A stretch of 49,735 nucleotides of DNA, taken from positions 1-49,735 of the forward strand of contig JAEESS010000010.1 of assembly GCA_016286445.1 (NCBI GenBank). Direction: 5' to 3'. How positions within the stretch are numbered: the first letter of the stretch is position 1; each line of letters opens with the position of its first letter. Below, in pieces: positions 15,823 to 32,619 of this stretch. The position numbers and the translations under genes are program-made. The stretch is from Bacillota bacterium. GTDB taxonomy: Bacteria; Bacillota; Clostridia; Christensenellales; CAG-138. Under the pieces are notes generated by a model, which was given only the letters and a program-made list of their open reading frames with translations, was not told where the DNA came from and did not search any database.

Positions 15823-15851
15823 TTGACAGCGTGTGAGAGCGGGGATATAAT
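15823..15851 (+). promoter_or_regulatory. Consensus promoter of the cobalamin operon
   Basis: TTGACA (15823-15828), 17 bases, then TATAAT (15846-15851): a perfect sigma-A consensus promoter. Transcription should start near 15858, just before the first base pair of the riboswitch aptamer. Such strength suits a promoter whose output is set downstream by the riboswitch. Confidence 0.92.
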
Positions 15852-15866
15852 ATCGATAATTGAATA

Positions 15867-16040
15867 AAGCAGTCGGTGCCTTTGCTCCGAAAGGAACGAA
15901 GGGTAAAAGGGAAACAGGTGAAACGCCTGTGCGAACTCGTCACCGTATGCGGTTCGACACTGTCATGCACAAGCAGCCACTGAGCGATCGGGAAGGCGAC
16001 AGCGTCCTATGCCGCAAGCCGGGAAACCTGCCGAATGCTT
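15867..16040 (+). promoter_or_regulatory. Cobalamin (B12) riboswitch aptamer
   Basis: The 174-base segment has the hallmarks of the cobalamin aptamer. The P1 helix is AAGCA..CGG (15867-15876) against CCG..TGCTT (16031-16040). The conserved core AAAAGGGAA followed by AGGTGAAACGCCT is at about 15905-15928, ATGCCGCAAGCC is near 16009-16020, and the B12 box GCCGGGAAACCTGCC is at 16018-16032. It sits directly after a consensus promoter and before an operon of cobalamin genes. By family knowledge it binds adenosyl- or other cobalamins and represses expression when occupied. Confidence 0.95.
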
Positions 16041-16142
16041 GGTACGGAAAAAATCACGAGGGACTGATTGTGTACCATGCTCCGCGTTTCGGGGCAACTT
16101 TCGTACGCAGTCTCTTTACCGGTTCGGTAAGGGACTTTTTTC
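16041..16142 (+). terminator. Riboswitch expression platform with antiterminator element and intrinsic terminator
   Basis: The terminator stem is AGTCTCTTTACC (16109-16120) against GGTAAGGGACT (16126-16136), followed by T6. The sequence AGGGACT of its 3' arm also occurs at 16059-16065, where it can pair with the same 5' arm (16109-16116) as an antiterminator. That copy sits in the loop of a hairpin formed by GGTAC/GTACC (16041-16045/16072-16076) and AATCA/TGATT (16052-16056/16065-16069), in the position of the P13/L13 stem-loop of B12 riboswitches. Ligand binding would hold this loop and free the terminator, which makes it an OFF switch. Confidence 0.88.
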
Positions 16143-16224: not shown

Positions 16225-18531
16225 ATGAAAAAGACAATTGCTTTGCTTCTGGCGATCGCAATGTTTGCGGCAGTCGCGGCGGCGTGCGCAGGCACGACGA
16301 ACCCGCCGGCAGAGCCGACGGCGGAACCTGCTGCGGAACCCACGGCGGAACCGGAAGCGCCCGTTGACACCGCGGCGACGGACAAGATGGCGGCGGACCG
16401 CGTTGCGGCGCTGATCGACGCGATCTATGTGCAGGAGCGCAACGAGAACACCGACGAGCTGTGCGCGGCGGCAAAGGCGGCGTGGGACGCGCTGACCGAT
16501 GCGCAGAAGGAACTCGTGGAGGGCGAGGAAGCCGATCCCGATTACTTCGGCAGAGACACCGGTGACGCGTCGAAGGACGATCCGAGAAACGCGGATGAGA
16601 TCGGCGAAAACGAGCTGCTGGTCGTAAGCTTCGGCACGTCGTTCAACGACAGCCGCGCCGAGGACATCGGCGGCATCGAGGCGGCGCTTGCCGCGGCGTA
16701 TCCGGACTGGTCGGTGCGCAGAGCGTTCACCGCGCAGATCATCATCAACCACGTCCAGGCGCGCGACGGCGAATTTATCGATAACATGGATCAGGCGCTG
16801 GAGCGCGCTGTGAAGAACGGCGTCAAGAACCTCGTGGTCCAGCCGACGCACCTGATGCAGGGCGCGGAATACGACGAGCTTTGCGCTGCGGTCGAAGCCT
16901 ATCAGGACAAGTTCGAGACTGTGAGGATCGCGCTGCCTCTGCTCGGCACCGTCGGCAAGGATGCGGCGGAAGTCAATGCAGACAAGGAAACCGTCGCAAA
17001 GGCGGTCGTCGATGCGGCAGTGGAAGACGCGGCGTTTGAAAGCCTTGCGGCGGCAGACGAAGCGGGTATTGCGTTCGTGCTTATGGGACACGGCACCTCG
17101 CATAACGCGAAGGTCACCTATACGCAGATGCAGAACATGATGAACAACCTCGGCTATAAGAACGTCTTTATCGGTACCGTTGAGGGAGAGCCGGAGGAGA
17201 CCTCCTGCGAGAACGTCATCAAGGCAGTCAGTGAAGCCGGTTATAAGTATGTGATCCTGCGCCCGTTGATGGTCGTTGCGGGCGATCATGCGAACAACGA
17301 TATGGCGGATCCCGACGATCCCGAATCCTGGTACTCTATGTTCTCCGCGAGCGGTCTCTTTGACGAGATCGCGACCCAGATCGCAGGTCTCGGACGGATC
17401 GAGGCGGTCCAGGCGCTGTATGTGGCGCACACTGCGGACGCGATCCCGAACCCGGACAAGGAAGCGGCGGACAACGTTGCGGCGCTGATCGACGCGATCT
17501 ATGTGCAGGAGCGCACCGAGAATACCGACGAGCAGTGCGCGGCGGCAAAGGCTGCGTGGGACGCGCTGACCGATGCGCAGAAGGAGCTCGTTGAGGGTGA
17601 GGAAGCCGATCCCGATTACTTCGGCAGAGACACCGGCGACGCGTCGAAGGACGATCCGAGAAACGCGGATGAGATCGGCGAAAACGAGCTGCTGGTCGTG
17701 AGCTTCGGCACGTCGTTCAACGACAGCCGCGCCGAGGACATCGGCGGCATCGAGGCGGCGCTTGCCGCGGCGTATCCGGATTGGGCGGTGAGACGTGCGT
17801 TCACCGCGCAGATCATCATCAACCACGTCCAGGCGCGCGACGGCGAGTTTATCGACAACATGGATCAAGCGCTGGAACGCGCCGTGAAAAACGGCGTCAA
17901 GAACCTCGTGGTCCAGCCGACGCACCTGATGCAGGGCGCGGAGTACGACGAGCTTTGCGCTGCGGTCGAAGCCTACAAAGATAAATTTGAGAGCGTCAAG
18001 ATCGCGCTGCCGCTGCTGGGCGAAGTCGGCAAGGACGCGGCGGAAGTCAACACGGACAAGGAAACCGTCGCAAAGGCGATCACGGCGGAAGCGGTAAAGA
18101 CCGCGGGCTATGAGTCGCTCGAAGACGCAGCTGCGGACGGCGTTGCGTTCGTGTTCATGGGACACGGCACCTCGCATAAGGCGAAGGCCACCTATACGCA
18201 GATGCAGAAGCAGATGGAAGAGCTCGGCTATAAGAACGTATTCATCGGCACCGTCGAGGGTGAGCCGGAGGAGACCGCATGCGAAGCGGTCATCGAGGCG
18301 GTCCATGCGGCAGGCTATGACAAGGTCGTTCTGCGTCCGCTGATGGTCGTTGCGGGCGATCACGCGAACAACGACATGGCGGATCCCGACGATCCCGAAT
18401 CCTGGCTCCGTCAGTTCAAGGACGCCGGTCTGTTCTTTACGGTTGACGTGCAGATCGCCGGTCTCGGCAGAATTGCGGACGTGCAGGCGCTCTATGTTGC
18501 GCACACCGCGGAAGCGATGAAAGCGGAATAA
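16225..18531 (+). CDS. Exported lipoprotein with two tandem CbiK-type (sirohydrochlorin cobaltochelatase) domains
   Basis: 768 residues. The N-terminus (MKKTIALLLAIAMFAAVAAACAG) is a lipoprotein signal followed by an Ala/Pro/Glu-rich linker, so the protein should be anchored outside the membrane. Each half has a short helical module ending in DALTDAQKELVEG, then a complete CbiK domain beginning ELLVVSFGTSFNDSR. Residues equivalent to the metal ligands of CbiK/CbiK-P are present in both halves: His289 (GHGTSH), Glu320 (GTVEGEP) and His355 (GDHANND), and His647, Glu678 and His713. Typical CbiK is one cytoplasmic domain of about 260-300 residues; here it is exported and duplicated. Exported CbiK relatives exist: Desulfovibrio CbiK-P is periplasmic, and Porphyromonas IhtB is a haem-binding surface lipoprotein. 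It is the first gene after the B12 riboswitch. Capture or metal exchange of a tetrapyrrole or cobalt outside the cell is my inference. Confidence 0.9.
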   Translation: MKKTIALLLAIAMFAAVAAACAGTTNPPAEPTAEPAAEPTAEPEAPVDTAATDKMAADRVAALIDAIYVQERNENTDELCAAAKAAWDALTDAQKELVEGEEADPDYFGRDTGDASKDDPRNADEIGENELLVVSFGTSFNDSRAEDIGGIEAALAAAYPDWSVRRAFTAQIIINHVQARDGEFIDNMDQALERAVKNGVKNLVVQPTHLMQGAEYDELCAAVEAYQDKFETVRIALPLLGTVGKDAAEVNADKETVAKAVVDAAVEDAAFESLAAADEAGIAFVLMGHGTSHNAKVTYTQMQNMMNNLGYKNVFIGTVEGEPEETSCENVIKAVSEAGYKYVILRPLMVVAGDHANNDMADPDDPESWYSMFSASGLFDEIATQIAGLGRIEAVQALYVAHTADAIPNPDKEAADNVAALIDAIYVQERTENTDEQCAAAKAAWDALTDAQKELVEGEEADPDYFGRDTGDASKDDPRNADEIGENELLVVSFGTSFNDSRAEDIGGIEAALAAAYPDWAVRRAFTAQIIINHVQARDGEFIDNMDQALERAVKNGVKNLVVQPTHLMQGAEYDELCAAVEAYKDKFESVKIALPLLGEVGKDAAEVNTDKETVAKAITAEAVKTAGYESLEDAAADGVAFVFMGHGTSHKAKATYTQMQKQMEELGYKNVFIGTVEGEPEETACEAVIEAVHAAGYDKVVLRPLMVVAGDHANNDMADPDDPESWLRQFKDAGLFFTVDVQIAGLGRIADVQALYVAHTAEAMKAE
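16390..17463 (+). repeat. Internal gene duplication, copy 1 (1074 bp)
   Basis: First unit of a direct in-frame duplication inside the CbiK-type lipoprotein gene. The offset to copy 2 is 1074 bases (358 codons), and long stretches are identical or nearly so at DNA level, for example the ends of the helical module and the first 130 codons of the chelatase domain. Confidence 0.9.
17464..18531 (+). repeat. Internal gene duplication, copy 2
   Basis: Second unit of the duplication. It differs from copy 1 mostly at third positions and in the middle of the domain (around the YESLEDAAADG segment), while the ligand motifs GHGT, VEGEP and GDHANND are kept. The ends of the domain have also diverged (WLRQFKDAGLF against WYSMFSASGLF). 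Confidence 0.9.
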
Positions 18532-18558: not shown

Positions 18559-19116
18559 ATGAAACGTATTTTTGCAGCATGCTTTGCGCTTCTGATGCTG
18601 GCGGCGTTTGCCGCCTGCGGCACGAAGCCGGAGCCCTCGCCCGCGCCGCTGCCCGACGCCGTCCCGACGGAAGCGCCGGAAGCCGAGCCGGAAGCGACCG
18701 AAATACCCGCGCCCACCGAGGAGCCCGAAACCGAATCGAAGATCGATCTTCCGGACGGCGTCTACACGGCGGAGTTCAAAACGGACAGCTCCATGTTCCA
18801 CGTCAACGAGGCGAACAAGGGCATGGGCGTTCTGACCGTCAGCGACGGCAAGGCGACCATTCACATCAGCCTTGTCGGTAAGTCGATTCTGAACCTGTTC
18901 CCGGGTCTTGCGGAGGACGCGCAGAAGGACGGCGCGGCGCTCCTGGAGCCGACGACGGATACCGTGACTTACGACGACGGCGAGACGGAGGAGGTCTACG
19001 GCTTCGACGTGCCCGTCCCGGTCATCGGCGAGGAGTTCGATCTGGCGCTGATCGGCAAGAAGGGCAAGTGGTACGATCATAAGGTGATCGTTCTGAATCC
19101 GGTTCCGCAAAACTGA
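18559..19116 (+). CDS. Lipoprotein of the B12-regulated surface module (function unknown)
   Basis: 185-residue predicted lipoprotein with lipobox near Cys20 (LAAFAACGTK) and a long Pro/Glu/Thr spacer (residues 22-60). A compact beta-rich domain follows, starting DGVYTAEFKTDSSMFHVNEA and ending with GKWYDHKVIVLNP. I do not recognise a named family with proven function. Similar domains occur next to iron- or cobalt-type ABC transporters of gut Clostridia as far as I recall. It lies 27 bases after the chelatase lipoprotein and belongs to the same riboswitch-controlled transcript, so binding of a corrinoid, haem-like ligand or metal at the surface is a reasonable guess. An AAAGGAAA site precedes the ATG. 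Confidence 0.75.
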   Translation: MKRIFAACFALLMLAAFAACGTKPEPSPAPLPDAVPTEAPEAEPEATEIPAPTEEPETESKIDLPDGVYTAEFKTDSSMFHVNEANKGMGVLTVSDGKATIHISLVGKSILNLFPGLAEDAQKDGAALLEPTTDTVTYDDGETEEVYGFDVPVPVIGEEFDLALIGKKGKWYDHKVIVLNPVPQN

Positions 19117-19220: not shown

Positions 19221-19625
19221 ATGAAAAAGAGGATTTTGGTTTCGGTTCTTGCAGCGGTGCTGTTGCTTGTTTCGATCGGCTGTGCAAAGAACGCACTGCC
19301 GAAGGAAGGCACCTATCTCGTGGACGTCACGCTGGAAGGCGGTACCGGAAAGGCGAAGATCCAGTCGCCGGCGCAGCTGACCGTTTTTCAGGACGGAAAA
19401 GCGACGCTGATTGTGATCTGGAGCAGCGACAAGTATGATTACATGCTCGTCGGCGGCGAGCGGTATGAGCCCGCGATCCGGGACGGACACGCGATGTTCG
19501 CGATCCCGGTTGAAACGATTTACGAGCCGCTGAAGGTGATCGCGGATACCGTAGCGATGAGCGCGCCGCATGAGATCGAATACACGATCACGTTTGACGC
19601 GGCGTCCTTAAAACCCGCGGCATGA
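19221..19625 (+). CDS. Small lipoprotein, ABC-transporter-associated beta domain
   Basis: 134-residue predicted lipoprotein (MKKRILVSVLAAVLLLVSIG, then Cys21). One beta-rich domain follows, containing DVTLEGGTGKAKIQSPAQLT, WSSDKYDYMLVGGERYEP and ADTVAMSAPHEIEYTITFD. These motifs recur, to my recollection, in small unnamed proteins encoded beside metal or tetrapyrrole ABC transporters in gut Firmicutes. No biochemical function is known to me. The reading frame is open from 19185, but the ATG at 19221 follows GGAGGGG and starts a proper signal peptide. The stop overlaps the start of the substrate-binding protein gene in an ATGA, which ties it closely to the transporter. It could pass ligand to that protein. 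Confidence 0.78.
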   Translation: MKKRILVSVLAAVLLLVSIGCAKNALPKEGTYLVDVTLEGGTGKAKIQSPAQLTVFQDGKATLIVIWSSDKYDYMLVGGERYEPAIRDGHAMFAIPVETIYEPLKVIADTVAMSAPHEIEYTITFDAASLKPAA

Positions 19626-20779
19626 GGCGGCAGATCGCAGAAAAGATCGGCGCACTGCTTTTGTGCGCTGCTTTTTGCGTTCTGAGCTTTGCCTGCGGCG
19701 GGGCAAAAACCGACGGATCGGAGCATCCGGCGGGTCCCGCATGGGAAACGCTCGAAGTGCTTTCCGAAACGCCGGTGCGCTACGCGACCGAGTTTTCGAT
19801 CCGGCAGCTTTCCGACGGCTATGAGCTGATCGAGATCCCGGCGACCGGGAAGCTGCTTCTCGTGCCGGAGGGCATGGGAAAGCCCGCGGGATTGCCGGAG
19901 GACGTTTCCGTTCTGTACCGTCCGGTCGATCGGATCTATCTGGCGGCGACGAGCGCGATGGACTTTTTCCGCGCGCTGGACGGGATCGGTGCGGTGCGGC
20001 TGTCCGGCACAAAGGCGGACGGCTGGTCGGTCAGGGAGGCGGCGGACGCGATGGAGCGCGGCGACATGCTGTTTGCCGGCAAGTACAGCGCGCCGGATTT
20101 TGAGCTCATTCTGAAGGAACGCTGCAGCCTTGCGATCGAATCGACGATGATCTACCATTCGCCTGCGATCAGTGAGAAGCTCCGCGATTACGGGATCCCC
20201 GTGCTGATCGAGCGGTCGAGCTACGAACAGGATCCTTTGGGACGCATGGAATGGATCAAGGTGTACGGCGCGATCCTCGGAAAAGATGCCGAGGCGGAAG
20301 CCGCGTTCGACGCGGAGGTCAGATCGGTCGAGGAGATCGGCGATATTCCGAAGACGGGCAAGACCGTCGCGTTCTTCTATGTCACCGGCGCCGGCAGCGT
20401 GAACGTGCGCAAGAGCGGCGATTACGTTGTCAGAATGATCGAGACCGCGGGCGGCGCGTACGCGTTCCCGGATCTTTCGGACGGCAGCGCGCTTTCCACC
20501 GTGAACATGACGATGGAAAGCTTTTATACCGGCGCGAAGGACGCCGATATTCTGATCTACAACAGCACGATCGACGGCGAGATCTATTCGATATCCGAGC
20601 TTTTGGACAAAAGCCCGCTGTTTTCCGAGTTCAGGGCGGTGAAAAGCGGCGACGTGTGGTGCACGGGCAAGAACCTGTTTCAGGAGCCGATGGGCATCGG
20701 CAAACTGATCGCGGATTTTTACCGGGTGCTGTCGGGAGAGGGGACCGACGCGCTCGTATACTTACACAAGGTTGACTGA
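19622..20779 (+). CDS. ABC transporter substrate-binding lipoprotein (FepB/BtuF type)
   Basis: 385-residue class III-type solute-binding protein for iron-chelate or corrinoid uptake. It has a lipoprotein signal (lipobox LSFAC near residue 25), an N-lobe with the VDRIYLAATSAMDFFRAL segment, a connecting long helix region (PLGRMEWIKVYGAILGKDAE) and a C-lobe (GKTVAFFYVTGAGSVNVRKS). Its place directly before a FecCD permease and ATPase, under a B12 riboswitch, suggests corrinoid, cobinamide or another tetrapyrrole as substrate. The sequence alone does not separate this from siderophore binding. It is translationally coupled to the small lipoprotein before it. Confidence 0.88.
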   Translation: MRRQIAEKIGALLLCAAFCVLSFACGGAKTDGSEHPAGPAWETLEVLSETPVRYATEFSIRQLSDGYELIEIPATGKLLLVPEGMGKPAGLPEDVSVLYRPVDRIYLAATSAMDFFRALDGIGAVRLSGTKADGWSVREAADAMERGDMLFAGKYSAPDFELILKERCSLAIESTMIYHSPAISEKLRDYGIPVLIERSSYEQDPLGRMEWIKVYGAILGKDAEAEAAFDAEVRSVEEIGDIPKTGKTVAFFYVTGAGSVNVRKSGDYVVRMIETAGGAYAFPDLSDGSALSTVNMTMESFYTGAKDADILIYNSTIDGEIYSISELLDKSPLFSEFRAVKSGDVWCTGKNLFQEPMGIGKLIADFYRVLSGEGTDALVYLHKVD

Positions 20780-20794
20780 CGGAGGCGAGATCGG

Positions 20795-21838
20795 ATGCAG
20801 ACCCCCGGAACCGAACGGAATATTCAGAGAACACGGCAGGCAAGGACGATATTCGGCTTTGTACTGCTGTTTGTCGCTTTGCTCGGGTTTGCGTTCTGGA
20901 ACATCGCCGCGGGCAGCACGCCCATGTCGCTGCCTGAAGTGTTCGACGGGCTGCTGGATCCTTCGAGCCCGCACCGCGTGATCGTGATGGACGTACGCAT
21001 GGTGCGCATCGTTCCGGCGATCCTTTTAGGCGGCGCGCTGGCGCTCTCCGGCTTTCTCCTGCAGACTTTCTTCAGCAACCCGATCGCGGGTCCGTTCATC
21101 CTGGGCATTTCATCCGGGGCGAAGCTTGTGCTGTCGGTCACGATGATCGCGTTTTTAAGCCGCGGCGCAGCTATAGGCTCGGTCGTGCTGATCGCCGCCT
21201 CGTTCGCCGGCGCGATGCTTTCGATGGGATTTGTGCTCGCGATCTCGCACAAGGTCAAGCGCATGTCGATGCTCATCATCTGCGGCGTCATGATCGGGTA
21301 TATCTGCTCGGCGATCACGGAGTTTGTGATCCGGTTTGCCGACGATTCCAATATCGTCAAGCTCCATGACTGGGCAATGGGCAGCTTCGCAAGCATCAAG
21401 TGGGACAATGTGATCGTCATCGCGGCGGTCGTGCTGCCCGCGCTGGTGCTCGCGTTTCTGCTTTCAAAGCCCATCGGCGCGTATCAGCTCGGCGAGGTCT
21501 ACGCAAAGAATCTCGGCGTGAACATCACGGCGTTCCGGATCGCGCTGATCCTGCTTTCCGGCGTCCTTTCCGCATGCGTCACGGCATTTGCGGGACCGAT
21601 CTCCTTCGTCGGCGTTGCGGTGCCGCATCTGATGCGAAGGCTCTTTAGGACCGCAAAGCCGATCGTGATGATCCCCGCGTGTTTTTTGGGCGGCGCGGTA
21701 TTCTGTCTCTTCTGCGATCTCATCGCGCGTACGGCGTTTGCGCCGAATGAGCTTTCGATCAGCTCGGTAACCGCCGTGTTCGGCGCGCCGATCGTCATCC
21801 TCGTGATGCTCAAACGGCAGAAGGAGGACGGCAGATGA
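20795..21838 (+). CDS. ABC transporter permease, FecCD/BtuC family
   Basis: 347-residue inner-membrane permease with about nine to ten hydrophobic helices, typical of the FecCD family. Motifs include RMVRIVPAILLGGALALSGF near the second helix, NPIAGPFILGISSGAK, and GPISFVGVAVPHLMRRLF in the cytoplasmic coupling region that contacts the ATPase. GGAGG stands nine bases before the ATG. The gene overlaps the ATPase gene by four bases. It would function as a homodimer. Confidence 0.93.
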   Translation: MQTPGTERNIQRTRQARTIFGFVLLFVALLGFAFWNIAAGSTPMSLPEVFDGLLDPSSPHRVIVMDVRMVRIVPAILLGGALALSGFLLQTFFSNPIAGPFILGISSGAKLVLSVTMIAFLSRGAAIGSVVLIAASFAGAMLSMGFVLAISHKVKRMSMLIICGVMIGYICSAITEFVIRFADDSNIVKLHDWAMGSFASIKWDNVIVIAAVVLPALVLAFLLSKPIGAYQLGEVYAKNLGVNITAFRIALILLSGVLSACVTAFAGPISFVGVAVPHLMRRLFRTAKPIVMIPACFLGGAVFCLFCDLIARTAFAPNELSISSVTAVFGAPIVILVMLKRQKEDGR

Positions 21839-22965
21839 ACGATACCTACTACATTTCCGCAAACGGCATGACCGTCGGCTACGACGGCAAACCGCTGATC
21901 GAAAACATCTCCATCGGGGTCCGCCGCGGCGAGATCCTGACGCTGATCGGACCGAACGGCTCGGGCAAGTCCACGATCCTCAAAAGCATGATCAAGGAGC
22001 TTCGGCTGATCGCGGGCACGGTCGTGCTCGACGGACGCGATATGGAGGGGCTTCGGGAGCGCGACGTCGCGAAAAAGCTTGCGATCGTGATGACCGAACG
22101 GATCCGGGCGGAGCTTTTGACCTGCTGGGACATCGCTGCGACCGGGCGCTATCCGTACACCGGACACCTCGGACTTCTGTCGAAGGAGGACCGCGCGATC
22201 GTCGACGCGGCGCTCGAAACGGTGCATGCGAAAGACTTTGCGGATCGCCCGTTTGCCCGCATCTCGGACGGACAGCGCCAGAGGGTCCTGCTTGCCCGCG
22301 CGATCGCGCAGCAGCCGGAGATCATCGTGCTCGACGAGCCGACGTCGTTCCTCGACGTCCGGCATAAGCTGGAGCTTCTGGACATCCTGAAAACCATGGT
22401 GCGCGAAAAGAACGTTGCGGTCATCGTTTCGCTGCACGAGCTCGACCTTGCCGAAAAGATCTCGGACCGCGTCGTATGCGTGGCAAACGGCAGAATCGAC
22501 CGGTATGATACGCCGGAAAACATTTTTACAGACGACTATATCTGCTCGCTCTACGGCATCGAGCGCGGGAGCTTCCACGCGCTGTTCGGCAGCGTGGAGC
22601 TTCCCGCGGTTTCGGGCGAGCCGCAGGTTTTTGTGATCGGCGGCGGCGGCAGCGGCATACCCGCGTACCGCGCGCTGCAGCGGGCGGGGATCCCGTTTGC
22701 GGCGGGGATCCTGCCCGAAAGCGATCTCGATTTTCCGGTCGCAAAGGCGCTTGCGGCGGAGTTATACGCGGTTCCCGCCTTTTCGATCTCGAAGGACGCG
22801 GGGACAGAGAACGTGATCGGGCGCATGCTGGCGATCGGCAGCGCCGTTTCGACCGTACCCGCTTTCGGCGAGACCAATGCGGCAAATTTGAAATTGTATG
22901 AAGCGGCAAGATCGGCAGGGATCCTCACCGAGCTTGACGCGCTGATCGGGAGGACGGACGCATGA
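21835..22965 (+). CDS. ABC transporter ATPase (FecE/BtuD type) with extra C-terminal domain
   Basis: 376 residues. The first ~250 form a normal ABC ATPase: Walker A GPNGSGKST at 39-47, a signature region in which ISDGQRQR replaces LSGGQ, Walker B IIVLDEPTS, D-loop FLD, and switch His in VSLHELDLA. Residues from about 258 make an added Rossmann-like domain beginning QVFVIGGGGSGIPAYRALQR, of unknown job. The usual length of such ATPases is 250-270 residues. The extension recurs, to my knowledge, in ATPases beside cobalamin genes of Firmicutes and may sense a nucleotide or a pathway intermediate; that is inference. Overlaps permease and cbiB by four bases each. Confidence 0.9.
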   Translation: MNDTYYISANGMTVGYDGKPLIENISIGVRRGEILTLIGPNGSGKSTILKSMIKELRLIAGTVVLDGRDMEGLRERDVAKKLAIVMTERIRAELLTCWDIAATGRYPYTGHLGLLSKEDRAIVDAALETVHAKDFADRPFARISDGQRQRVLLARAIAQQPEIIVLDEPTSFLDVRHKLELLDILKTMVREKNVAVIVSLHELDLAEKISDRVVCVANGRIDRYDTPENIFTDDYICSLYGIERGSFHALFGSVELPAVSGEPQVFVIGGGGSGIPAYRALQRAGIPFAAGILPESDLDFPVAKALAAELYAVPAFSISKDAGTENVIGRMLAIGSAVSTVPAFGETNAANLKLYEAARSAGILTELDALIGRTDA

Positions 22966-23951
22966 CGCTTTGGCAGCTGACGCTTTTATCCGTCCTTTCC
23001 GGCTTTCTGATCGACTGCGCGATCGGCGATCCCGCATGGCTTCCGCATCCCGTGGTTCTGATCGGCAAGCTGATCTCACTTTCCGAAAAGGGTCTGCGGC
23101 ACATCTTTCCGAAAACCGACCGCGGCGCATTCCGGGCGGGGCTTGTGATGGCGATCCTTGTGCCGCTCCTGTCCGCGGGCGTAAGCTTCGGGATCCTGTT
23201 CGGGCTGTATCTGCTCTCTCCGTGGGCGTATTTTGCGATGAGCTCGATCATGTGCTGGCAGTGCTTCGCGGCAAGATGCCTTGCGAAGGAGGCGGGCAAG
23301 GTCGTAAAAGCGCTTGAAACGGACGGGCTTGCAGCGGGCAGAAAGCAGGTTTCGATGCTCGTCGGACGCGATACGGAGCGCTTATCCGAAGCGCAGGTGC
23401 TGAAGGCGACGGTGGAGACCGTGGCGGAAAACGCGTCGGACGGCGTGATCGCGCCGATGCTGTTTATGCTCCTGTTCGGCGCGGTCGGCGGGTTCTTCTA
23501 TAAGGCGATCAACACGATGGATTCGATGGTCGGTTATAAAAACGACCGGTATCTTTATTTCGGGCGCGCCGCGGCAAAGCTGGACGACGCGGCAAATTTC
23601 CTTCCGGCAAGGCTCTCCGCGCTTGCGATGATCGCTGCCGCGCCGATCCTGAAGCTCGATGGCAGGAACGCGTTCCGCATTTGGAAGCGCGACCGAAGAA
23701 AGCATGCAAGCCCGAACTCGGCGCAGACCGAATCGGTCGCGGCGGGCGCGCTGCACATTGAGCTTGCGGGGCCGGCAAGCTATTTCGGGAAGGTCCTGGA
23801 AAAGCCGACGATCGGCGACAGCGACCGTCCGATCGAACCGGCGGACGTCCGCCGCACATCAAAGCTGATGTACGGCGCGAGCGTTCTGCTTCTTGTACTA
23901 TCAGAAGCGGTCCTTCTGCCGCTCGCGTTTTTCGGAGGGCTCGGACTGTGA
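22962..23951 (+). CDS. cbiB: Adenosylcobinamide-phosphate synthase
   Basis: 329-residue integral membrane protein of the CbiB/CobD family. It attaches aminopropanol phosphate (or aminopropanol) to adenosylcobyric acid. Family motifs include IDCAIGDPAWLPHPVVLIGK, the ATVETVAENASDGVIAPM block, and NTMDSMVGYKNDRY. Four to five hydrophobic segments are visible. The length is normal. It overlaps both neighbours by four bases (ATGA at the start, GTGA at the end), so translation is coupled through the operon. Confidence 0.96.
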   Translation: MTLWQLTLLSVLSGFLIDCAIGDPAWLPHPVVLIGKLISLSEKGLRHIFPKTDRGAFRAGLVMAILVPLLSAGVSFGILFGLYLLSPWAYFAMSSIMCWQCFAARCLAKEAGKVVKALETDGLAAGRKQVSMLVGRDTERLSEAQVLKATVETVAENASDGVIAPMLFMLLFGAVGGFFYKAINTMDSMVGYKNDRYLYFGRAAAKLDDAANFLPARLSALAMIAAAPILKLDGRNAFRIWKRDRRKHASPNSAQTESVAAGALHIELAGPASYFGKVLEKPTIGDSDRPIEPADVRRTSKLMYGASVLLLVLSEAVLLPLAFFGGLGL

Positions 23952-24997
23952 TTTTGGGAAATTACGCACATGGCGGCGACGTCTATAAAAACCGTGTCAC
24001 GCTCGATTTTTCGGCGAACGTGAATCCGTTCGGCACGCCCGGACCCGTCAAGGCGGCGATCCGCGCCGCGGCGGAGGACGCGGCACGCTATCCGGACCCG
24101 TACTGCCTGCAGCTTCGTGAAAAGCTTGCGGCGCTGCACGGCGTTTCACCCGAGACGATCCTCTGCGGCAACGGCGCGGCGGAGCTGATCTTTTCGTTTG
24201 CGCAGGCGCTCCGTCCGAACAGCGCGCTGCTGCCCGTTCCGTCGTTTGCGGAGTACGAGACCGCGCTTCGTTCCGTCGGCGTTGAACCGGCGTTTTACGC
24301 GCTTCTCAGGGAGAATGGCTTTGCGCTTACGGAGGACATTCTTGACGCGATCACGCCGGATACGGACGTTCTGATGCTCTGTTCGCCGAACAATCCGACC
24401 GGGCGAAGCATTGCGCCGGAGCTGCTATTGCGCATCGTCGACCGCTGCAGAGAGACCGGGACGTGGCTGCTTTCGGACGAGTGCTTTCAGGATCTGTGCG
24501 ACGAGGACAGGTCGTTTTCGCTGATCGGTTCTTTGAAGGACGGCGACCGCGTGCTGATCCTCAGAGCGTTCACCAAAACGTACGGCATGGCGGGCGTGCG
24601 GCTTGGGTATGCGGTCTCGCAAAACCGCGAACTGCTTATGAAAATGTCCGAGACCGTGCAGCCGTGGAACGTTTCGAACGCGGCGCAGAAGGCGGGACTT
24701 GCGGCTTTGGACTGTCCGGATTGGGCAAAGGACGCGCGGACGCTGTTCCGGGCGGAGAAGGCATTTTTGATGAAGGAGCTTTCCGCACGCGGCATTTCCG
24801 TGCTGTACGGGGACGCGAACTATCTGCTGCTGTCCGACGTGCCGGGACTGTATGAAAAGCTTCTTGAAAGGGGGATCCTCGTCCGCGACTGCGGAAACTA
24901 TCGCGGGCTGGGACCGGGCGACGTGCGGATCGCGGTGCGCACGCATGCGGAAAACGCCGCGCTGATCGCGGCGATCACGGAGGTGCTGCATGGCTAA
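23948..24997 (+). CDS. cobD: L-threonine-O-3-phosphate decarboxylase
   Basis: 349-residue PLP-dependent aminotransferase-fold enzyme (class I/II) of the CobD type. It makes (R)-1-amino-2-propanol phosphate for the nucleotide loop, the partner substrate of CbiB just upstream. The N-terminus has GNYAHGGDVYKNRVTLDFSA and NVNPFGTP, typical of CobD. The PLP lysine is Lys210 in AFTKTYGMAGVRLGY. Histidinol-phosphate aminotransferase is the close relative, but the N-terminal HGG motif and position beside cbiB favour CobD. The start is GTG, overlapping the cbiB stop. Confidence 0.93.
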   Translation: MILGNYAHGGDVYKNRVTLDFSANVNPFGTPGPVKAAIRAAAEDAARYPDPYCLQLREKLAALHGVSPETILCGNGAAELIFSFAQALRPNSALLPVPSFAEYETALRSVGVEPAFYALLRENGFALTEDILDAITPDTDVLMLCSPNNPTGRSIAPELLLRIVDRCRETGTWLLSDECFQDLCDEDRSFSLIGSLKDGDRVLILRAFTKTYGMAGVRLGYAVSQNRELLMKMSETVQPWNVSNAAQKAGLAALDCPDWAKDARTLFRAEKAFLMKELSARGISVLYGDANYLLLSDVPGLYEKLLERGILVRDCGNYRGLGPGDVRIAVRTHAENAALIAAITEVLHG

Positions 24998-26132
24998 AAC
25001 CGGCATTGAGGACCATTATATCGAGAAGGACGGCAAGCGTCTGCGCTTCGGCTATACGACCGGCGCCTGCGCCGCAGCGGCGGCAAAAGCGGCGGCGATC
25101 CTGCTTTTTTCCGGCACGGCGCCCATGACCGTTCCGCTGCATACGCCGAAGGGGATCGACCTTGATCTTCCGGTGCTGGAGCCGGTCAAGGGGGAAGGCT
25201 TTGCGTCCTGCGCGATCCGGAAGGATTCCGGCGACGATCCCGACGTTACGAACGGCGTGCTGGTCTATGCGCGCGTCGCATTTTCGGATAAACCGGGCAT
25301 TTCGATCGACGGGGGCTTAGGCGTCGGGCGGGTGACCAAGCCGGGGCTCAAGCAGGCGATCGGCGAGGCGGCGATCAATCCCGTCCCGCGTGAAATGATC
25401 CAAAACGCGGTCGAAACGATCGCGGAGGAATATGAAGCCGCGAGGGGGCTTTCGGTCGTGATCTCGATCCCCGAGGGCGTCGCGCTTGCGGAAAAGACGT
25501 TCAACCCGCGGCTCGGCATCGAGGGCGGGATCTCGATCCTCGGCACGAGCGGCATCGTTGAACCCATGAGCGAGGACGCGCTTGTCGACAGCATCGTGCT
25601 GGAGATCCGGCAAAGAAAAGCGCTCGGAGACAAGCGGTTGATCCTTACGCCCGGCAATTACGGCGCGGACTTTCTTGCCGAGCGGTACGGGATCCCGGAC
25701 GAACGGATCGTCAAATGCTCGAATTACATCGGCAAGGCGATCGAAGCGGCGATCGAAGCGGGCTTTTCGGAAGCGCTGCTCTGCGGGCACATCGGCAAGT
25801 TCGTGAAGCTCTCCGGCGGCATGATGAACACGCACTCGAAGGAGGGCGACTGCCGTGCGGAGCTGATGGCTTCCGCGGCGCTGCGCGCAGGCGCGGACGC
25901 GGACACGGCGCGCGCCCTGTTCGACTGCGTCACGACCGACGAGATGCTTCGCATCATAGAAGAAACAGGACTGCTTTCCGGTACGATGGACGCGCTGCGG
26001 GAACGCATTGCGTTTTCGCTGAACGCGAGGTTCAAGGGCGCGATCACATTCGGAGTGATCGTCTTCACCGGCAAAAACCGGGAGCTTATCAAGACCGAAA
26101 CGGCAAGCGCATGGACGGAGGAGGGCGTATGA
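24990..26132 (+). CDS. cbiD: Cobalt-precorrin-5B C1-methyltransferase
   Basis: 380-residue CbiD, which methylates C1 of cobalt-precorrin-5B in the anaerobic route. Typical motifs are LRFGYTTGACAAAAAKAA near the start, IRKDSGDDPDVTNG, the SIDGGLGVGRVTKPGL stretch, and GHIGKFVKLSGGMMNTHS near residue 265. The anaerobic pathway marker CbiD and the absence of CobG-type genes identify the early-cobalt-insertion route. It overlaps cobD by eight bases and cbiL by four. Confidence 0.96.
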   Translation: MAKTGIEDHYIEKDGKRLRFGYTTGACAAAAAKAAAILLFSGTAPMTVPLHTPKGIDLDLPVLEPVKGEGFASCAIRKDSGDDPDVTNGVLVYARVAFSDKPGISIDGGLGVGRVTKPGLKQAIGEAAINPVPREMIQNAVETIAEEYEAARGLSVVISIPEGVALAEKTFNPRLGIEGGISILGTSGIVEPMSEDALVDSIVLEIRQRKALGDKRLILTPGNYGADFLAERYGIPDERIVKCSNYIGKAIEAAIEAGFSEALLCGHIGKFVKLSGGMMNTHSKEGDCRAELMASAALRAGADADTARALFDCVTTDEMLRIIEETGLLSGTMDALRERIAFSLNARFKGAITFGVIVFTGKNRELIKTETASAWTEEGV

Positions 26133-26809
26133 ACGGCATTCTGTACGGCGTCGGCGTCGGACCCGGCGATCCGGAGCTTTTGACATGCAAGGCGGCGCGG
26201 CTCATCGGGGAATGCGACGTGCTTGCGATCCCGCATCGGGATCCCGAAAAATGCTTTGCGTACAGGATCGCACGCGGCGCGGTTCCGGAGGCAAAGGACA
26301 AGCCGCTTCTTTGCATCGACATGCCGATGACGCACGATCAAGCGGTTCGCGAGGCGGCGTATGAAGCGGGCGCGGAACGGATCGCGGCGGCGCTCGCGAC
26401 CGGCGAGACCGTCGTATTCCTCACGCTCGGCGATCCTTCGGTCTATTCAACGTTCGCCTATCTTGCGGCGAAGGTCTCAGCGAAGGGATACGACGTCAAG
26501 TGGGTCCCCGGCGTGACCTCGTTTTGCGCGGGGGCGGCGGCTTTGGGAGAGCCGCTTTGTCTCGACCGCGATGAACTGCACATCCTGCCGGGCAGCGCAA
26601 ACGCCGCGGAAGCGCTGAAATATCCCGGCACCAAGGTTTTTATGAAGGGCGAGCTCGGTCCGCTTCTCGACGCGATCGAACAGAGCGGCAGGGAAGCGTG
26701 CGCGGTCGAAAACTGCGGCACGGAGGACGAGCGCGTGTACCCGACGCGTTCGGATATTCCGAGGGACGCGGGGTATTATCTGGTAACCGTCGTAAAGGAG
26801 GAAGTATGA
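26129..26809 (+). CDS. cbiL: Cobalt-precorrin-2 C20-methyltransferase
   Basis: 226-residue tetrapyrrole methylase (SAM-dependent) that methylates C20 of cobalt-factor II/precorrin-2. It starts MNGILYGVGVGPGDPELLT, with the GVGPGDPEL motif characteristic of CbiL/CobI, followed by LGDPSVYSTFAYL and the PGVTSFCAGAAALG motif. The frame is open farther upstream but that part only shadows cbiD in another frame. The ATG at 26129 overlaps the cbiD stop. Length is normal for the family. Confidence 0.94.
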   Translation: MNGILYGVGVGPGDPELLTCKAARLIGECDVLAIPHRDPEKCFAYRIARGAVPEAKDKPLLCIDMPMTHDQAVREAAYEAGAERIAAALATGETVVFLTLGDPSVYSTFAYLAAKVSAKGYDVKWVPGVTSFCAGAAALGEPLCLDRDELHILPGSANAAEALKYPGTKVFMKGELGPLLDAIEQSGREACAVENCGTEDERVYPTRSDIPRDAGYYLVTVVKEEV

Positions 26810-27564
26810 TCCGTTTTGTAGGCGCAGGCTGCGGCGCAGCCGATCTTATCACCGTACGGGGACAGCGGCTTTTGCAGGAAGCCGACGTCATCATCTATGC
26901 GGGGTCCTTGGTGAACCCCGCGCTGCTCGAAGTCAAAAAAGACGGCTGCAGGGTATATAACAGCGCGGAGATGACGCTTGAGGAGGTGCTCTCCGTGATG
27001 TACGACGCGGAGGCGCAGGGGCTCATGACCGTGCGGTTGCACACCGGCGATCCTTGCCTTTTCGGGGCGATCCGCGAGCAGATGGATGCGCTTGATGAGA
27101 AGGGCATTGCATACGATTACACGCCGGGCGTCAGCTCGTTCTGCGGCGCGGCGGCGGCGCTCAATATGGAATACACGCTCCCCGGCGTCTCGCAGAGCGT
27201 CGTCATCACGCGCATGGCGGGCAGAACACCGGTCCCGGAGCGCGAGAGCGTTCGCGCGTTCGCGCAGCATCGGGCGACGATGGTGCTGTTCCTAAGCACC
27301 GGACTTTTGGAAAAAACGCAGGAGGAGCTGATCGCGGGCGGATATCCGTCCGATACGCCCGCGGCGATCGTCTATAAGGCGAGCTGGCCGGACGAGCGCA
27401 CGTTCCTCTGCACGATCGGTACACTTGCCGCCTGCGCAAAGGAGAACGGCGTGAAAAAAACCGCGCTGATCATCGTGGGCGATACGGTAAGGCAGAGCGG
27501 CTATGCACGCTCGGAGCTCTACAACCCGACGTTTGCGACGGAGTTCCGTCCCGCGAAGGAGTAA
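26806..27564 (+). CDS. cbiF: Cobalt-precorrin-4 C11-methyltransferase
   Basis: 252-residue SAM-dependent tetrapyrrole methylase, CbiF/CobM type, acting at C11. Recognisable stretches are FVGAGCGAADLITVRGQRLL, DVIIYAGSLVNPALL, LHTGDPCLFGAIREQMD, PGVSSFCGAAAALN and the C-terminal SELYNPTFATEFRPA. The ATG at 26806 overlaps the cbiL stop and is preceded by AAAGGAGG, which sets the start. Upstream open sequence in this frame belongs to the cbiL region. cbiG follows after three bases. Confidence 0.95.
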   Translation: MIRFVGAGCGAADLITVRGQRLLQEADVIIYAGSLVNPALLEVKKDGCRVYNSAEMTLEEVLSVMYDAEAQGLMTVRLHTGDPCLFGAIREQMDALDEKGIAYDYTPGVSSFCGAAAALNMEYTLPGVSQSVVITRMAGRTPVPERESVRAFAQHRATMVLFLSTGLLEKTQEELIAGGYPSDTPAAIVYKASWPDERTFLCTIGTLAACAKENGVKKTALIIVGDTVRQSGYARSELYNPTFATEFRPAKE

Positions 27565-27567
27565 CGC

Positions 27568-28596
27568 ATGGAGGTTCGGATCGTTTCCTATACCGCGCGC
27601 GGACGCGATACGGCGGAGCGCGTCAGGGACGCGCTGCAAAACGCGGGGCACGTCTGCCGGACGTTTGCACTGGAAAAATTCTGCAGGCACGGCGATGAGC
27701 CGCTGACCGGGTCCGCATCGGATTGGGCGGGGGACGGCTTTCAAAACGCCGACGCGCTGGTTTTCGTTTGCGCCGCAGGCATTGCGGTCCGTGCGATCGC
27801 GCCGTGGGTGAAGAGCAAGACGACCGATCCCGCGGTGCTCGTGCTCGACGAAAAGGCGACGTTCGTGATCCCGCTGCTCTCCGGGCATATCGGCGGTGCG
27901 AACGCGCTTGCGCAAACGCTTTCCGAAGCGATCGGGGCAACGCCGGTCATTACGACGGCGACCGATCTTTCGGGGCTTTTTGCCGTCGATGTGTTTGCGA
28001 AGAGGAATCGGCTGAAGATCACGGACATGGGGCTTGCAAAGGAGATCTCCGCGGCGATCCTTGCGGGCGAACCGATCGGCTTTTCATCCGATCTTCCCGT
28101 GACCGGCGCGCTACCGAAGGGACTGACAGCGGGGGATGCGCAGATCGGCGTGCAGATCGGCGTCTCCGGAAAAATGCCGTATCCGAAAACGCTTCGGCTG
28201 ATCCCGCAGCGTTACGCGATCGGCGCCGGCCTTAGACGCGGCAAGGATCCGAACGCGCTCGACGCGTTTTTGCTGCGCGAGCTTGATCGCGCAGGCGTTT
28301 CGCCGGACGAGGTCCTGTGCCTTGCGAGCATCGATCTCAAGAAGGATGAACCGGGACTTCTGGCGTTTTCTGAAGCGCACGGGCTTCCGTTTCTGACATT
28401 TACCGCGGATGAGCTGAATGCGGTGCCCGGCGATTTTTCCTGCTCGGCGTTTGTGAAGGAAACGACGGGCGTTGACTGCGTATCGGAGCGCGCGGCGGTC
28501 AAAGCCGCGCAAGGCGAACTGGTCGTACATAAGGTCGCGGAGGACGGCATGACCTTCGCGCTGGCTGCAATAAAGGAGGGGATCTCGTTTGAATAA
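27568..28596 (+). CDS. cbiG: Cobalt-precorrin-5A hydrolase
   Basis: 342-residue CbiG, which opens the delta-lactone of cobalt-precorrin-5A and releases acetaldehyde. The N-terminal domain contains FVCAAGIAVRAIAPWVKSK and PLLSGHIGGANALAQTLS. The C-terminal domain (from about residue 210) contains RYAIGAGLRRGKDP and LASIDLKKDEPGLL. Length is normal. AAGGAG overlaps the preceding stop and serves as ribosome binding site. The 3' end overlaps cbiH by eight bases. Confidence 0.95.
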   Translation: MEVRIVSYTARGRDTAERVRDALQNAGHVCRTFALEKFCRHGDEPLTGSASDWAGDGFQNADALVFVCAAGIAVRAIAPWVKSKTTDPAVLVLDEKATFVIPLLSGHIGGANALAQTLSEAIGATPVITTATDLSGLFAVDVFAKRNRLKITDMGLAKEISAAILAGEPIGFSSDLPVTGALPKGLTAGDAQIGVQIGVSGKMPYPKTLRLIPQRYAIGAGLRRGKDPNALDAFLLRELDRAGVSPDEVLCLASIDLKKDEPGLLAFSEAHGLPFLTFTADELNAVPGDFSCSAFVKETTGVDCVSERAAVKAAQGELVVHKVAEDGMTFALAAIKEGISFE

Positions 28597-29320
28597 GCTG
28601 TATGCGGTGGGATTGGGTCCCGGCGGCGCGGACGGCATGACGCTCCGCGCAAGGGATGCGCTGGAAAAAAGCGACGTGATCGTGGGCTACACGGTCTATA
28701 TCGATTTGATCCGCGAGCAGTTTCCGGACAAGGAATACCGCTCAACACCGATGCGGAAGGAGGTCGACCGCGTGCGCCTCGCGCTTTCGATCGCTTCGGA
28801 GGGAAAGACCGTCGCCATGGTCTGCTCCGGCGACGCAGGCGTGTACGGCATGAGCGGGCTTTGCGAGGAGCTTCTTTCCGAATATCCGGGCGTGACGTTT
28901 GAGACGGTCCCCGGCGTGTCCGCGGTGCTTTCCGGCGCTGCGATCTTAGGCGCGCCGCTGATGCACGACTTTGCGGTGATCAGTCTTTCCGATCTTCTGA
29001 CCCCGTGGGAAAAGATCGAAAAGCGGCTCCTTATGGCGGCGGAAGCGGACTTTGTGATCTGCCTGTACAATCCTTCGAGCCATAAGCGGCACGACTACCT
29101 GCAGCGCGCATGCGAGCTGGTGCTGCGGCATCAGTCCCCCGAAACCGTCTGCGGCGTTGCAAGGAACATCGGAAGAGAGGGCGAGTCAACGCAGGTCCTG
29201 ACGCTCAGGGAACTGCGGGATACGGAGGTCGACATGTTTTCGACCGTGTTCATCGGCAATTCCCAGACGAAGGTTTTGAATGGCAGAATGGTCACGCCGA
29301 GAGGATATCTGTATGAATAG
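28589..29320 (+). CDS. cbiH: Cobalt-precorrin-3B C17-methyltransferase
   Basis: 243-residue SAM-dependent methylase of CbiH/CobJ type, responsible for C17 methylation and ring contraction. It starts at a TTG (28589) giving MNKLYAVGLGPGGADGMTLR, preceded by AGGAGGGG; no ATG fits. Motifs: VIVGYTVYIDLI, CSGDAGVYGMSGL, PGVSAVLSGAAILGAPL, LYNPSSHKRHDYL and the final FIGNSQTKVLNGRMVTPRGY. All are family-typical. It overlaps cbiG and cbiJET by eight bases each. Confidence 0.95.
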   Translation: MNKLYAVGLGPGGADGMTLRARDALEKSDVIVGYTVYIDLIREQFPDKEYRSTPMRKEVDRVRLALSIASEGKTVAMVCSGDAGVYGMSGLCEELLSEYPGVTFETVPGVSAVLSGAAILGAPLMHDFAVISLSDLLTPWEKIEKRLLMAAEADFVICLYNPSSHKRHDYLQRACELVLRHQSPETVCGVARNIGREGESTQVLTLRELRDTEVDMFSTVFIGNSQTKVLNGRMVTPRGYLYE

Positions 29321-31277: not shown

Positions 31278-32619
31278 CCCGCGCGTGCTGTTCGCCGCGC
31301 CTTCCTCCGGCAGCGGCAAGACCACGATCGTCTGCGGCGTGCTGCGCGCGCTCAAAAACCGCGGCAGGAACGTTTCCGCGTTCAAGTGCGGACCGGATTA
31401 CATCGATCCGCTGTTCCACGAGCGCGTCGTCGGCGTAAAGTCCGGCACGCTGGATCTGTTCTTCTCCGACAAAGATACGCTCAGGCGCCTGTTCGCGCAA
31501 AACGCAGCAGATGCGGACTGCGCGGTGATCGAGGGTGTGATGGGCTACTACGACGGTTTGTCCGCCGCAAGCGACGAGGCGAGCACCTATGCCGTCGCAA
31601 AGACGCTTTCCGCGCCGGTCGTGCTGATCATAGACAGCCGCGGGCAAAGCCTTTCCGCACTTGCGACGCTCAAAGGCTTTCTGGATTTCCGTCCGGACAG
31701 TCAGATCAGAGGCGTTATCTTCAACCGCATGAGCGAGCATGTATACCGCACGCTGAAGCCGGAAGCCGAAGCGCTGGGCGTCGTGCCGGTAGGATTTGTG
31801 CCGAAGTCCGACGCGCTGATGCTTGAAAGCAGGCATCTGGGACTTGTCATGCCGGATGAGGTCAAAAACCTTTCCGAAAAGCTCGACGCGCTGGCTGCGC
31901 TTCTTGAGAAAACGCTCGATTTCGATGCGCTGGAACGCATCATGCGATCCGCGCCGGATCTCGATGTGCAGGAAGCGCCACAAGCGCCCGACATGCCGAA
32001 AACCGTGATCGCCGCGGCAAGGGACGAGGCGTTCTGCTTCCTCTATCGCGACAACCTTGCGCTTTTACGGCGGTATAATGCAGAGATCCGGTTTTTCTCG
32101 CCGCTTTCCGATCCGGCGCTTCCCGCGGGGACGCAGGGGCTTTTGCTTCCCGGCGGATATCCGGAGCTTTACGCAAAGCGGCTGTCCGAAAACACCGCGA
32201 TGCGGACGGCGATCCGGGAAGCGATCGAAAACGGTATGCCGTGCCTTGCCGAGTGCGGCGGGTTTCTGTATCTTCACGATACCCTGTCCGACATGGACGG
32301 CACCGCGTACCCGATGTGCGGCGTGATCCATACGGACGCATACCGTACGCAGAAGCTCGGCAGATTCGGTTATATCACGCTCTCAGCAAAGGACGATTCG
32401 GCGTTCTTCCGGGCGGGTGAAGCGATCCGCGCGCACGAGTTTCACTACTTTGAGAGCGGCGATCCCGGCGCGGCGTTTGCCGCCGTCAAGCCGAACGGAC
32501 GCGAATGGACGTGCATACACGCGCAGAAAAACCTGCTGGCGGGCTTTCCGCATCTCTTCTATGAATCGAACCCGAAGCCGATCGAGCGCTTTTTGCGGCT
32601 TGCGGCGAAGGAGGTATAA
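31270..32619 (+). CDS. cbiA: Cobyrinate a,c-diamide synthase
   Basis: 449-residue glutamine-dependent amidase that amidates the a and c side chains of cobyrinate. The N-terminal ATP domain has the P-loop APSSGSGKTTIVCG (residues about 9-22) and KCGPDYIDPLFH; VIEGVMGYYDG follows. The C-terminal class I amidotransferase domain has LLLPGGYPELYA and the nucleophile Cys in CLAECGGFLYL. These signatures separate it from CbiP. It overlaps the end of cbiJET by eight bases and directly abuts cbiP. Confidence 0.95.
   Translation: MHSPRVLFAAPSSGSGKTTIVCGVLRALKNRGRNVSAFKCGPDYIDPLFHERVVGVKSGTLDLFFSDKDTLRRLFAQNAADADCAVIEGVMGYYDGLSAASDEASTYAVAKTLSAPVVLIIDSRGQSLSALATLKGFLDFRPDSQIRGVIFNRMSEHVYRTLKPEAEALGVVPVGFVPKSDALMLESRHLGLVMPDEVKNLSEKLDALAALLEKTLDFDALERIMRSAPDLDVQEAPQAPDMPKTVIAAARDEAFCFLYRDNLALLRRYNAEIRFFSPLSDPALPAGTQGLLLPGGYPELYAKRLSENTAMRTAIREAIENGMPCLAECGGFLYLHDTLSDMDGTAYPMCGVIHTDAYRTQKLGRFGYITLSAKDDSAFFRAGEAIRAHEFHYFESGDPGAAFAAVKPNGREWTCIHAQKNLLAGFPHLFYESNPKPIERFLRLAAKEV

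Follow-up and report, generated by a model that had tools for sequence, protein, structure and literature searches.

The DNA analyzed here (the window) is a stretch of 49,735 nucleotides, positions 1 to 49,735 of contig JAEESS010000010.1 in assembly GCA_016286445.1, from a member of the Clostridia placed in the order Christensenellales (family CAG-138). It carries a corrin operon headed by a cobalamin riboswitch and by the gene for P0001, a protein with two copies of the chelatase domain CbiK and a predicted export signal, and this operon may be an entry point for salvaged tetrapyrroles. The start of the operon holds the following features:

15823..15851, + strand: promoter consensus TTGACA-17-TATAAT (12/12, a consensus match only)
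15857..16049, + strand: cobalamin riboswitch aptamer RF00174 (94.5 bits, E 2.3e-22)
16113..16133, + strand: terminator-like hairpin followed by a T run, the likely expression platform (pattern match)
16225..18531, + strand: P0001, tandem CbiK lipoprotein, apparently exported, 768 aa (signal residues 1-20, Cys21)

A ribosome site (aaggagg) precedes the ATG of P0001. Cobalamin riboswitches turn their operons off when B12 is sufficient, and the promoter, riboswitch, hairpin, and ribosome site together fit a B12-dependent stop of transcription, so this leader would halt transcription when B12 is plentiful.

The Pfam CbiK model (PF06180) matches P0001 in two stretches with 452.9 bits (cut-off, 26.2), and the two domains span residues about 131 to 407 and 489 to 765, each with a helical DALTDAQKELV module on its N-terminal side. 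The metal-site sets are His289/Glu320/His355 and His647/Glu678/His713, the first of which matches His145/Glu175/His207 of Salmonella CbiK (1qgo) in a hand-counted alignment. This triad is invariant in all 117 long-form exported-type domains compared (some loci are present twice). The N-terminus MKKTIALLLAIAMFAAVAAAC is compatible with a lipobox at Cys21; judged by its sequence, P0001 is apparently exported as a lipoprotein. Its N- and C-terminal halves are identical at 301 of 355 residues (85%), and 300 nt of the gene are repeated at 95% with a spacing of 1,074 nt. An AlphaFold2 model of the tandem protein (mean pLDDT 78.9; residues 1 to 46 below 50) found Salmonella CbiK, Porphyromonas gingivalis FetB (9b86), and two Desulfovibrio CbiK-P entries as its four best PDB matches, with a TM score on target of 0.89 and 34% identity against 1qgo. 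An earlier note on this DNA, written from the letters alone, had described a lipoprotein signal, two complete CbiK domains with these ligands, a helical module ahead of each, and a place as first gene of a B12-riboswitch operon. All of this was borne out, with RF00174 directly upstream and corrin genes downstream, and the structural comparison that the note proposed, run here on the tandem, put both CbiK and CbiK-P among the best matches.

Downstream, the operon continues with two small lipoproteins (domains P2 and P3), an importer, and the anaerobic corrin pathway from CbiL onward:

18559..19116, + strand: P0002, lipoprotein with domain P2 (predicted NEAT-like from a relative's fold)
19221..19625, + strand: P0003, lipoprotein with domain P3 (predicted NEAT-like from its relatives; start reassigned to the ATG of MKKRILV)
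19622..20779, + strand: BtuF-like substrate-binding lipoprotein (PF01497)
20795..21838, + strand: BtuC-like permease, FecCD (PF01032)
21835..22965, + strand: ABC ATPase, BtuD-like (named by position)
22962..23951, + strand: CbiB (PF03186)
23948..24997, + strand: class I/II aminotransferase, CobD-like (name inferred from context and position)
24990..26132, + strand: CbiD
26129..26809, + strand: CbiL, C20-methyltransferase (TIGR01467, 175.5 bits, cut-off 163.25; start approximate)
26809..27564, + strand: CbiF (TIGR01465, 325.2 bits, cut-off 259.65; start approximate)
27568..28596, + strand: CbiG
28589..29320, + strand: tetrapyrrole methylase, CbiH (named by position and the remaining pathway gap)
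29280..31277, + strand: CbiJ-CbiE-CbiT triple fusion (start of the reading frame approximate)
31270..32619, + strand: CbiA (CbiA and GATase_3 domains; CbiA or CbiP by order)
32620..34119, + strand: CbiP (CbiA and GATase_3 domains; assigned by order)
34116..35021, + strand: CbiC fused at its C-terminus to a small cysteine-rich domain, PF04071

The importer is recognized as BtuFCD-type from PF01497, PF01032, and an ABC ATPase in a row; a PDB sequence search with the BtuF-like protein gave no match. No cytosolic chelatase lies within the window operon, and no TonB-dependent receptor was found among its proteins scanned. The corrin genes are under purifying selection: an own Nei-Gojobori script gave dN/dS values of 0.12 to 0.47 when CbiB, D, F, G, H, J-E-T, and the CobD-like gene were compared with as many as three relatives and CbiL with a single one; CbiA, CbiP, and CbiC were outside this set. 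The PF04071 domain fused to CbiC (34116-35021) is a possible metal or redox site.

Gene content was surveyed in 53 genomes of the host family, 52 of them at least 90% complete plus the window's own at 81.7%. The corrin marker CbiD is present in 22, and CbiK was found in 21 of them and in 0 of the 31 that lack CbiD; for exported CbiK the figures are 20/22 and 0/31. Among the 22, exported CbiK alone occurs in 17 genomes, both forms in three, only a cytosolic form in G028, and neither in G031; cytosolic CbiK was found in G025, G028, G039, and G046. The exported gene is split between frames in G025, lacks the helical module and is shorter in G015, G018, and G046, and in G036 is seen only as its last stretch at a contig end, which was scored as exported from its operon, the signal being unseen. 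HemC serves the route to uroporphyrinogen III, and CobA the methylation of that compound to precorrin-2. HemC was found in 0/53 genomes by a search that was positive in 11 of 14 control genomes, and CobA above cut-off in none of the 22 corrin-making genomes, whose best CobA matches (136 to 153 bits) proved in one checked case (window 26809-27492) to be CbiF. In 11 exported-CbiK genomes beyond these, picked by HemC status, CobA tracks HemC (6/6 with it, 0/5 without). One exported-CbiK genome in which neither HemC nor CobA was found, that of Lachnospiraceae bacterium RM5, has cbiP at its locus. With the corrin genes of the window, this is the gene pattern of a precursor salvager, and the host, a relative of rumen and gut Clostridia, appears unable to build the B12 ring de novo. 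Since ring synthesis appears to be missing while the corrin enzymes from CbiL onward are kept alongside a surface chelatase, binders, and an importer, salvage of a ring is the simplest explanation.

Corrinoid uptake is what a B12 riboswitch next to BtuFCD-like genes usually indicates, and the operon could accordingly serve to import finished or late corrinoids (cobinamide, cobamides) with the help of extra surface binders. The CbiD-negative genomes, which would need such salvage most, are those in which CbiK is absent (0/31), and this explanation does not account for a corrin pathway held under selection without HemC and CobA; we consider it quite unlikely. A further option is that CbiK scavenges plain Co(II) and passes the bare ion on to BtuF. 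The CbiM cobalt importer was found in 0/22 CbiD-positive genomes (other cobalt transporters were not tested), which would suit such a scavenger. NEAT-like partners and a FecCD importer generally belong to tetrapyrrole or chelate systems, and the absent ring supply would stay unexplained, so that a scavenger of the bare ion seems very improbable. Salvage is well supported, and a sirohydrochlorin-level ring is its best reading.

The assignment of P2 and P3 as NEAT-like comes from relatives of the window proteins. In the locus L057, P2 and P3 are 72% and 56% identical to those of the window. A model of the P2+P3 part of L057, built with 41 sequences (mean pLDDT 85.4), has NEAT proteins as all of its 23 best PDB matches (IsdH, IsdB, IsdX1, IsdX2, Hal, Hbp2), which include all 8 matches at E <= 0.001. 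The best is two-domain IsdH (E 1.5e-7, with a large rmsd across both domains), and single-domain NEAT chains among the 23 reach TM scores of 0.40 to 0.73 on the L057 target, the top one 0.73 at 2.4 A. At the sequence level, 38 of 41 P2/P3 family members match PF05031 (NEAT) at E <= 1 (best, 4.5e-8), and 16 of 41 match the second-ranking family, a bacterial Ig-like domain (best, 4.6e-4); L057 itself scores 26.6 bits, under the cut-off of 32.8, and a PDB sequence search with the P2+P3 profile gave no match. The fold of L057 and the family matches to PF05031 together indicate that the gene families after the tandem CbiK are NEAT-like, and the window's P2 and P3 are predicted to be so through these relatives. 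The WYDH motif of P2 (Tyr in 40/41, His in 37/41) and the HxxxY motif of P3 (His in 38/41, Tyr in 41/41) are conserved and resemble YxxxY, the haem motif of NEAT domains.

A further alternative is haem or iron acquisition, known for NEAT proteins and proposed for P. gingivalis IhtB. In its favor are the NEAT-like fold of the P2+P3 relative, the place of FetB, haem-binding by its PDB name and presumably the same protein as IhtB, as second-best fold match of P0001, and the fact that a genome lacking HemC is also unable to make haem. The B12 riboswitch, the corrin operon, and the link to CbiD speak against it. Moreover, histidines 96 and 103 of CbiK-P, which we take to be its haem ligands, are replaced by Asp217 (in 117/117 domains) and, in the window, Glu224. 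Haem or iron acquisition thus appears very improbable, and the combination of NEAT-like partners, BtuFCD, and absent HemC and CobA favors early-ring salvage over haem or plain cobalt scavenging. The earlier note had placed P0001 at the cell surface, acting on a tetrapyrrole or metal before uptake under B12 control; this stands as a likely role as far as the sequence tells, with its cobalt-scavenging variant disfavored.

A locus scan with one genome per species found 288 matching loci, of which the best 80 were kept. Taxa named among them include Clostridia, Lachnospiraceae, Oscillospiraceae, Butyrivibrio, Dorea, and Agathobacter, along with individual bins labeled Muribaculaceae and Christensenella. 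At 79 of the best 80, CbiK has the long form, which includes the helical module. Near these 79 loci lie P2-like domains in 76, P3-like domains in 57, all of BtuF/C/D in 47, and a cbi gene in 53, short contigs being scored as misses; P2 is fused within the CbiK protein in 32 of 79, and several loci carry CbiK-P2-P3. A riboswitch or B12 box stands at the locus start in 68 of the 74 loci with at least 450 bases upstream: a B12-box pattern was seen in 54, and Rfam, run on 17 of the other 20, placed a cobalamin riboswitch directly upstream in 14. The Rfam search was negative for L030, L072, and L081; L031, L059, and L077, without a box, were outside the Rfam scan. Shorter exported CbiK proteins (about 290 to 305 aa) without the helical module occur in the same operon setting at L095, L097, and L098.

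The earlier note had suggested that the tandem form is a bidentate clamp for one ligand, which does not hold as a general function. Single-domain relatives (L114, L154) occur in the same genus and the same operon, and in one quick FastTree of the halves the N- and C-terminal half of a given protein group together in several separate branches (e.g., L020, L022, L026, L027, L030, and L035). The window's genus has one CbiK unit in G032 and G035 and two in G037, G038, and the window, and the 79 long-form loci have two CbiK stretches in 27 cases and one in 52 (contig ends included). Doubling of CbiK is recurrent and dispensable and not special to the window gene; as a modest explanation, the second copy would add local dose or avidity without being essential. 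A second row in the window's bin G000, on contig C55 (L093 1-9666, - strand), runs riboswitch-tandem CbiK-P2-P3-BtuFCD-CbiB-CobD-CbiD and is 77 to 93% identical to the window. The bin is 5.56% contaminated at its 81.7% completeness, and the C55 CbiK halves share 97 and 99% identity with halves found in other species, so that a chimeric bin is possible, as is a true paralogue.

Gene content, operon order, intact sites, and predicted folds are what the analysis shows; from these we infer the ligand, the direction of transport, the place of cobalt insertion, and the order of the relay as follows. The lipid-anchored CbiK would take a sirohydrochlorin-level ring from outside the cell and, its chelatase site being intact, would probably insert Co(II) into the captured ring there. 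The NEAT-like lipoproteins P2 and P3 would hand the cobalt-loaded ring to the BtuF-like protein, BtuCD would bring it into the cell, and CbiL would methylate it inside to feed the corrin pathway, until the riboswitch closes the operon at sufficient B12. The product of CbiK is the substrate of CbiL, so insertion outside followed by import would complete the pathway with no need for CbiM or for a chelatase in the cytosol; cobalt would come in already within the ring, and a CbiMNQO importer would be unneeded. We regard this whole chain, from surface entry point to CbiL, as about evenly poised between right and wrong. The more pointed idea that cobalt insertion has moved outside, with CbiK either loading salvaged sirohydrochlorin or swapping the iron of siroheme for cobalt, that a NEAT-BtuFCD relay supplies ring and metal together, and that IhtB and CbiK-P, both discussed so far as haem proteins, may do likewise, is put forward tentatively, with doubt slightly prevailing.

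Several findings weigh against this salvage-and-insertion reading. In three genomes without HemC, a cytosolic CbiK follows directly after BtuD, behind exported CbiK-P2-BtuFCD:

L034 14117-14917: cytosolic CbiK
L088 13107-13904: cytosolic CbiK
L029 12616-13244: cytosolic CbiK

In these lineages, cobalt may go in inside the cell, which counts against outside insertion as a general rule. L020 and L022 combine a tandem CbiK, P2, and corrin genes with no HemC and no BtuFCD nearby, and G028 and G031 have corrin operons without HemC, CobA, or the exported module. HemC is present in 17 of 50 exported-CbiK genomes (50 of the 80 tested). P0002 and P0003 themselves have no NEAT (PF05031) match at E <= 1 and no informative Pfam match, and P0001 scores 360.2 bits, under the cut-off of 400, with the NCBIfam equivalog for sirohydrochlorin cobaltochelatase (NF047852). 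The loss of early ring steps was judged on HemC and CobA, with HemA, HemL, HemB, and HemD not searched. Siroheme synthase (PF13241, SirC) was considered as a substitute chelatase; its matches in 22/22 genomes are weak and resemble other Rossmann proteins, and 14/14 controls match as well. Finally, the Fisher p of 1e-12 for the association of exported CbiK with CbiD overstates independence because genes of the same operon are gained and lost together, and kinship is uncorrected.

The three loci with a cytosolic CbiK also fit a system that only captures: the exported CbiK would bind an early tetrapyrrole, either free or as siroheme stripped of iron, and cobalt would be added within the cell, whether by a cytosolic CbiK or by some other enzyme. 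For IhtB, removal of iron has been put forward (PMC10913741). The invariance of the His/Glu/His triad argues the other way, as does the answer to a question raised in the earlier note, whether a cytosolic CbiK or CbiX accompanies the exported form: neither was found in 17 of 20 exported-CbiK genomes of the family, and no separate CbiX occurs in any of the 53, where CbiX matches are confined to CbiK frames. Capture alone is unlikely in our judgment, and we prefer insertion outside followed by import.

An ABC-2 ATPase and permease were considered as the exporting half of a cycle with loading outside, and rejected: within the window's family, G028 is the one genome of 53 that has the pair, which is not part of the window's system. 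Elsewhere, it adjoins CbiL and NEAT-like genes in L033, L090, L156, L157, L159, L160, L162, and L163; NEAT-like genes are present with no CbiL seen in L035 and L161, neither is present in L158, and a cytosolic CbiK lies beside the pair in L164. The adjoining NEAT-like proteins of L162 and L090 match NEAT under the cut-off, and those of L163 and L159 have no NEAT match. Among the 50 exported-CbiK genomes, the pair is found in 9 of 17 with HemC versus 4 of 33 without (p 0.005). The row CbiL-ABC-2 ATPase-ABC-2 permease-NEAT-like recurs (L090 792-7404, L033 3036-9884), with HemC and CobA-HemD close by in L033, L090, L159, L160, and L163; it is possibly a tetrapyrrole efflux or trafficking system, to which we assign no direction. 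Of the two genomes with corrin operons and no exported module, G031 (L105) and G028 (L104, L164), the latter has its cytosolic CbiK beside the ABC-2 transporter. Apart from the operon, the window encodes a 2,078-residue protein (6038-12274) with BspA-type leucine-rich repeats, a cohesin-like domain, and a fibronectin type III domain.

For bacteria that keep the corrin pathway without a starting ring, this locus suggests an uptake route that is concrete, widespread, and open to testing, and it would couple the supply of cobalt to that of the ring. It also suggests another possible reading for exported CbiK proteins classed under haem. If true, early tetrapyrroles would be traded as B12 building blocks between gut and rumen microbes.

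Salmonella CbiK, a cytoplasmic enzyme, shares the fold and the His/Glu/His triad and is a single domain, whereas P0001 is doubled and predicted to be exported. Desulfovibrio CbiK-P (2xvx/2xvz) has an exported CbiK fold (TM 0.89 on target, 33 to 34% identity) and B12-riboswitch control in common with P0001. It is a single-domain protein of a Gram-negative periplasm, has the two extra histidines that P0001 lacks, and to our knowledge has no NEAT-like partners. CbiK-P has been placed under a B12 riboswitch in Desulfovibrio and its kin (PMC11124144, PMC545781). A single B12 element was described for cbiK-cbiL with btuCDF, whether cbiK was exported not being specified in the part available, and cbiK-bearing delta-proteobacteria were reported to have no known cobalt transporter (PMC545781).

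The Isd-type haem relay of Gram-positive bacteria shares with the window NEAT-like surface domains, a substrate-binding lipoprotein, and a FecCD-type importer. Its order runs from NEAT surface domains to the binding lipoprotein and then to the importer. The Isd relay has haemoglobin receptors, in place of which the window has CbiK, with a B12 riboswitch and a corrin operon in addition, and Isd NEAT domains differ from the window's P2 and P3 in that the latter are unrecognized by the Pfam NEAT model.

The corrin pathway of P. gingivalis is reportedly functional, going by the title of Roper 2000. Like P0001, IhtB of this species is a CbiK-like lipoprotein that goes with a periplasmic binding protein, a permease, and an ATPase (PMC10913741). 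The Iht system is filed under haem and iron uptake and, unlike the window operon, has a TonB-dependent receptor; the portion of PMC10913741 available names no tandem form and no NEAT-like proteins. P. gingivalis, described as lacking the steps to precorrin-2 (PMC6461909), pairs that loss with a CbiK-like lipoprotein (PMC6461909, PMC10913741).

Tetrapyrrole precursor salvagers, defined in 2018 as having kept the corrin pathway and lost early ring steps, are mostly Firmicutes and were tested with 5-aminolevulinic acid in three species, with no ring-uptake route described in the text available (PMC6461909). In the window's lineage, by comparison, HemC and CobA are among the genes lost, and we propose an import system. 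A rumen study of 2025 reported the chelatase alongside BtuFCD in one set of contigs and, in a second set, corrin genes lacking the early ones, the two not being linked in the portion available (PMC12654859). Within the open-access literature, as far as its available text goes, we found no paper that brings together an exported CbiK, partners of the NEAT-like kind, and the loss of HemC and CobA. Compared with these systems, an exported, B12-regulated CbiK was already known from Desulfovibrio, and the NEAT-like partners and the salvage context appear to be new.

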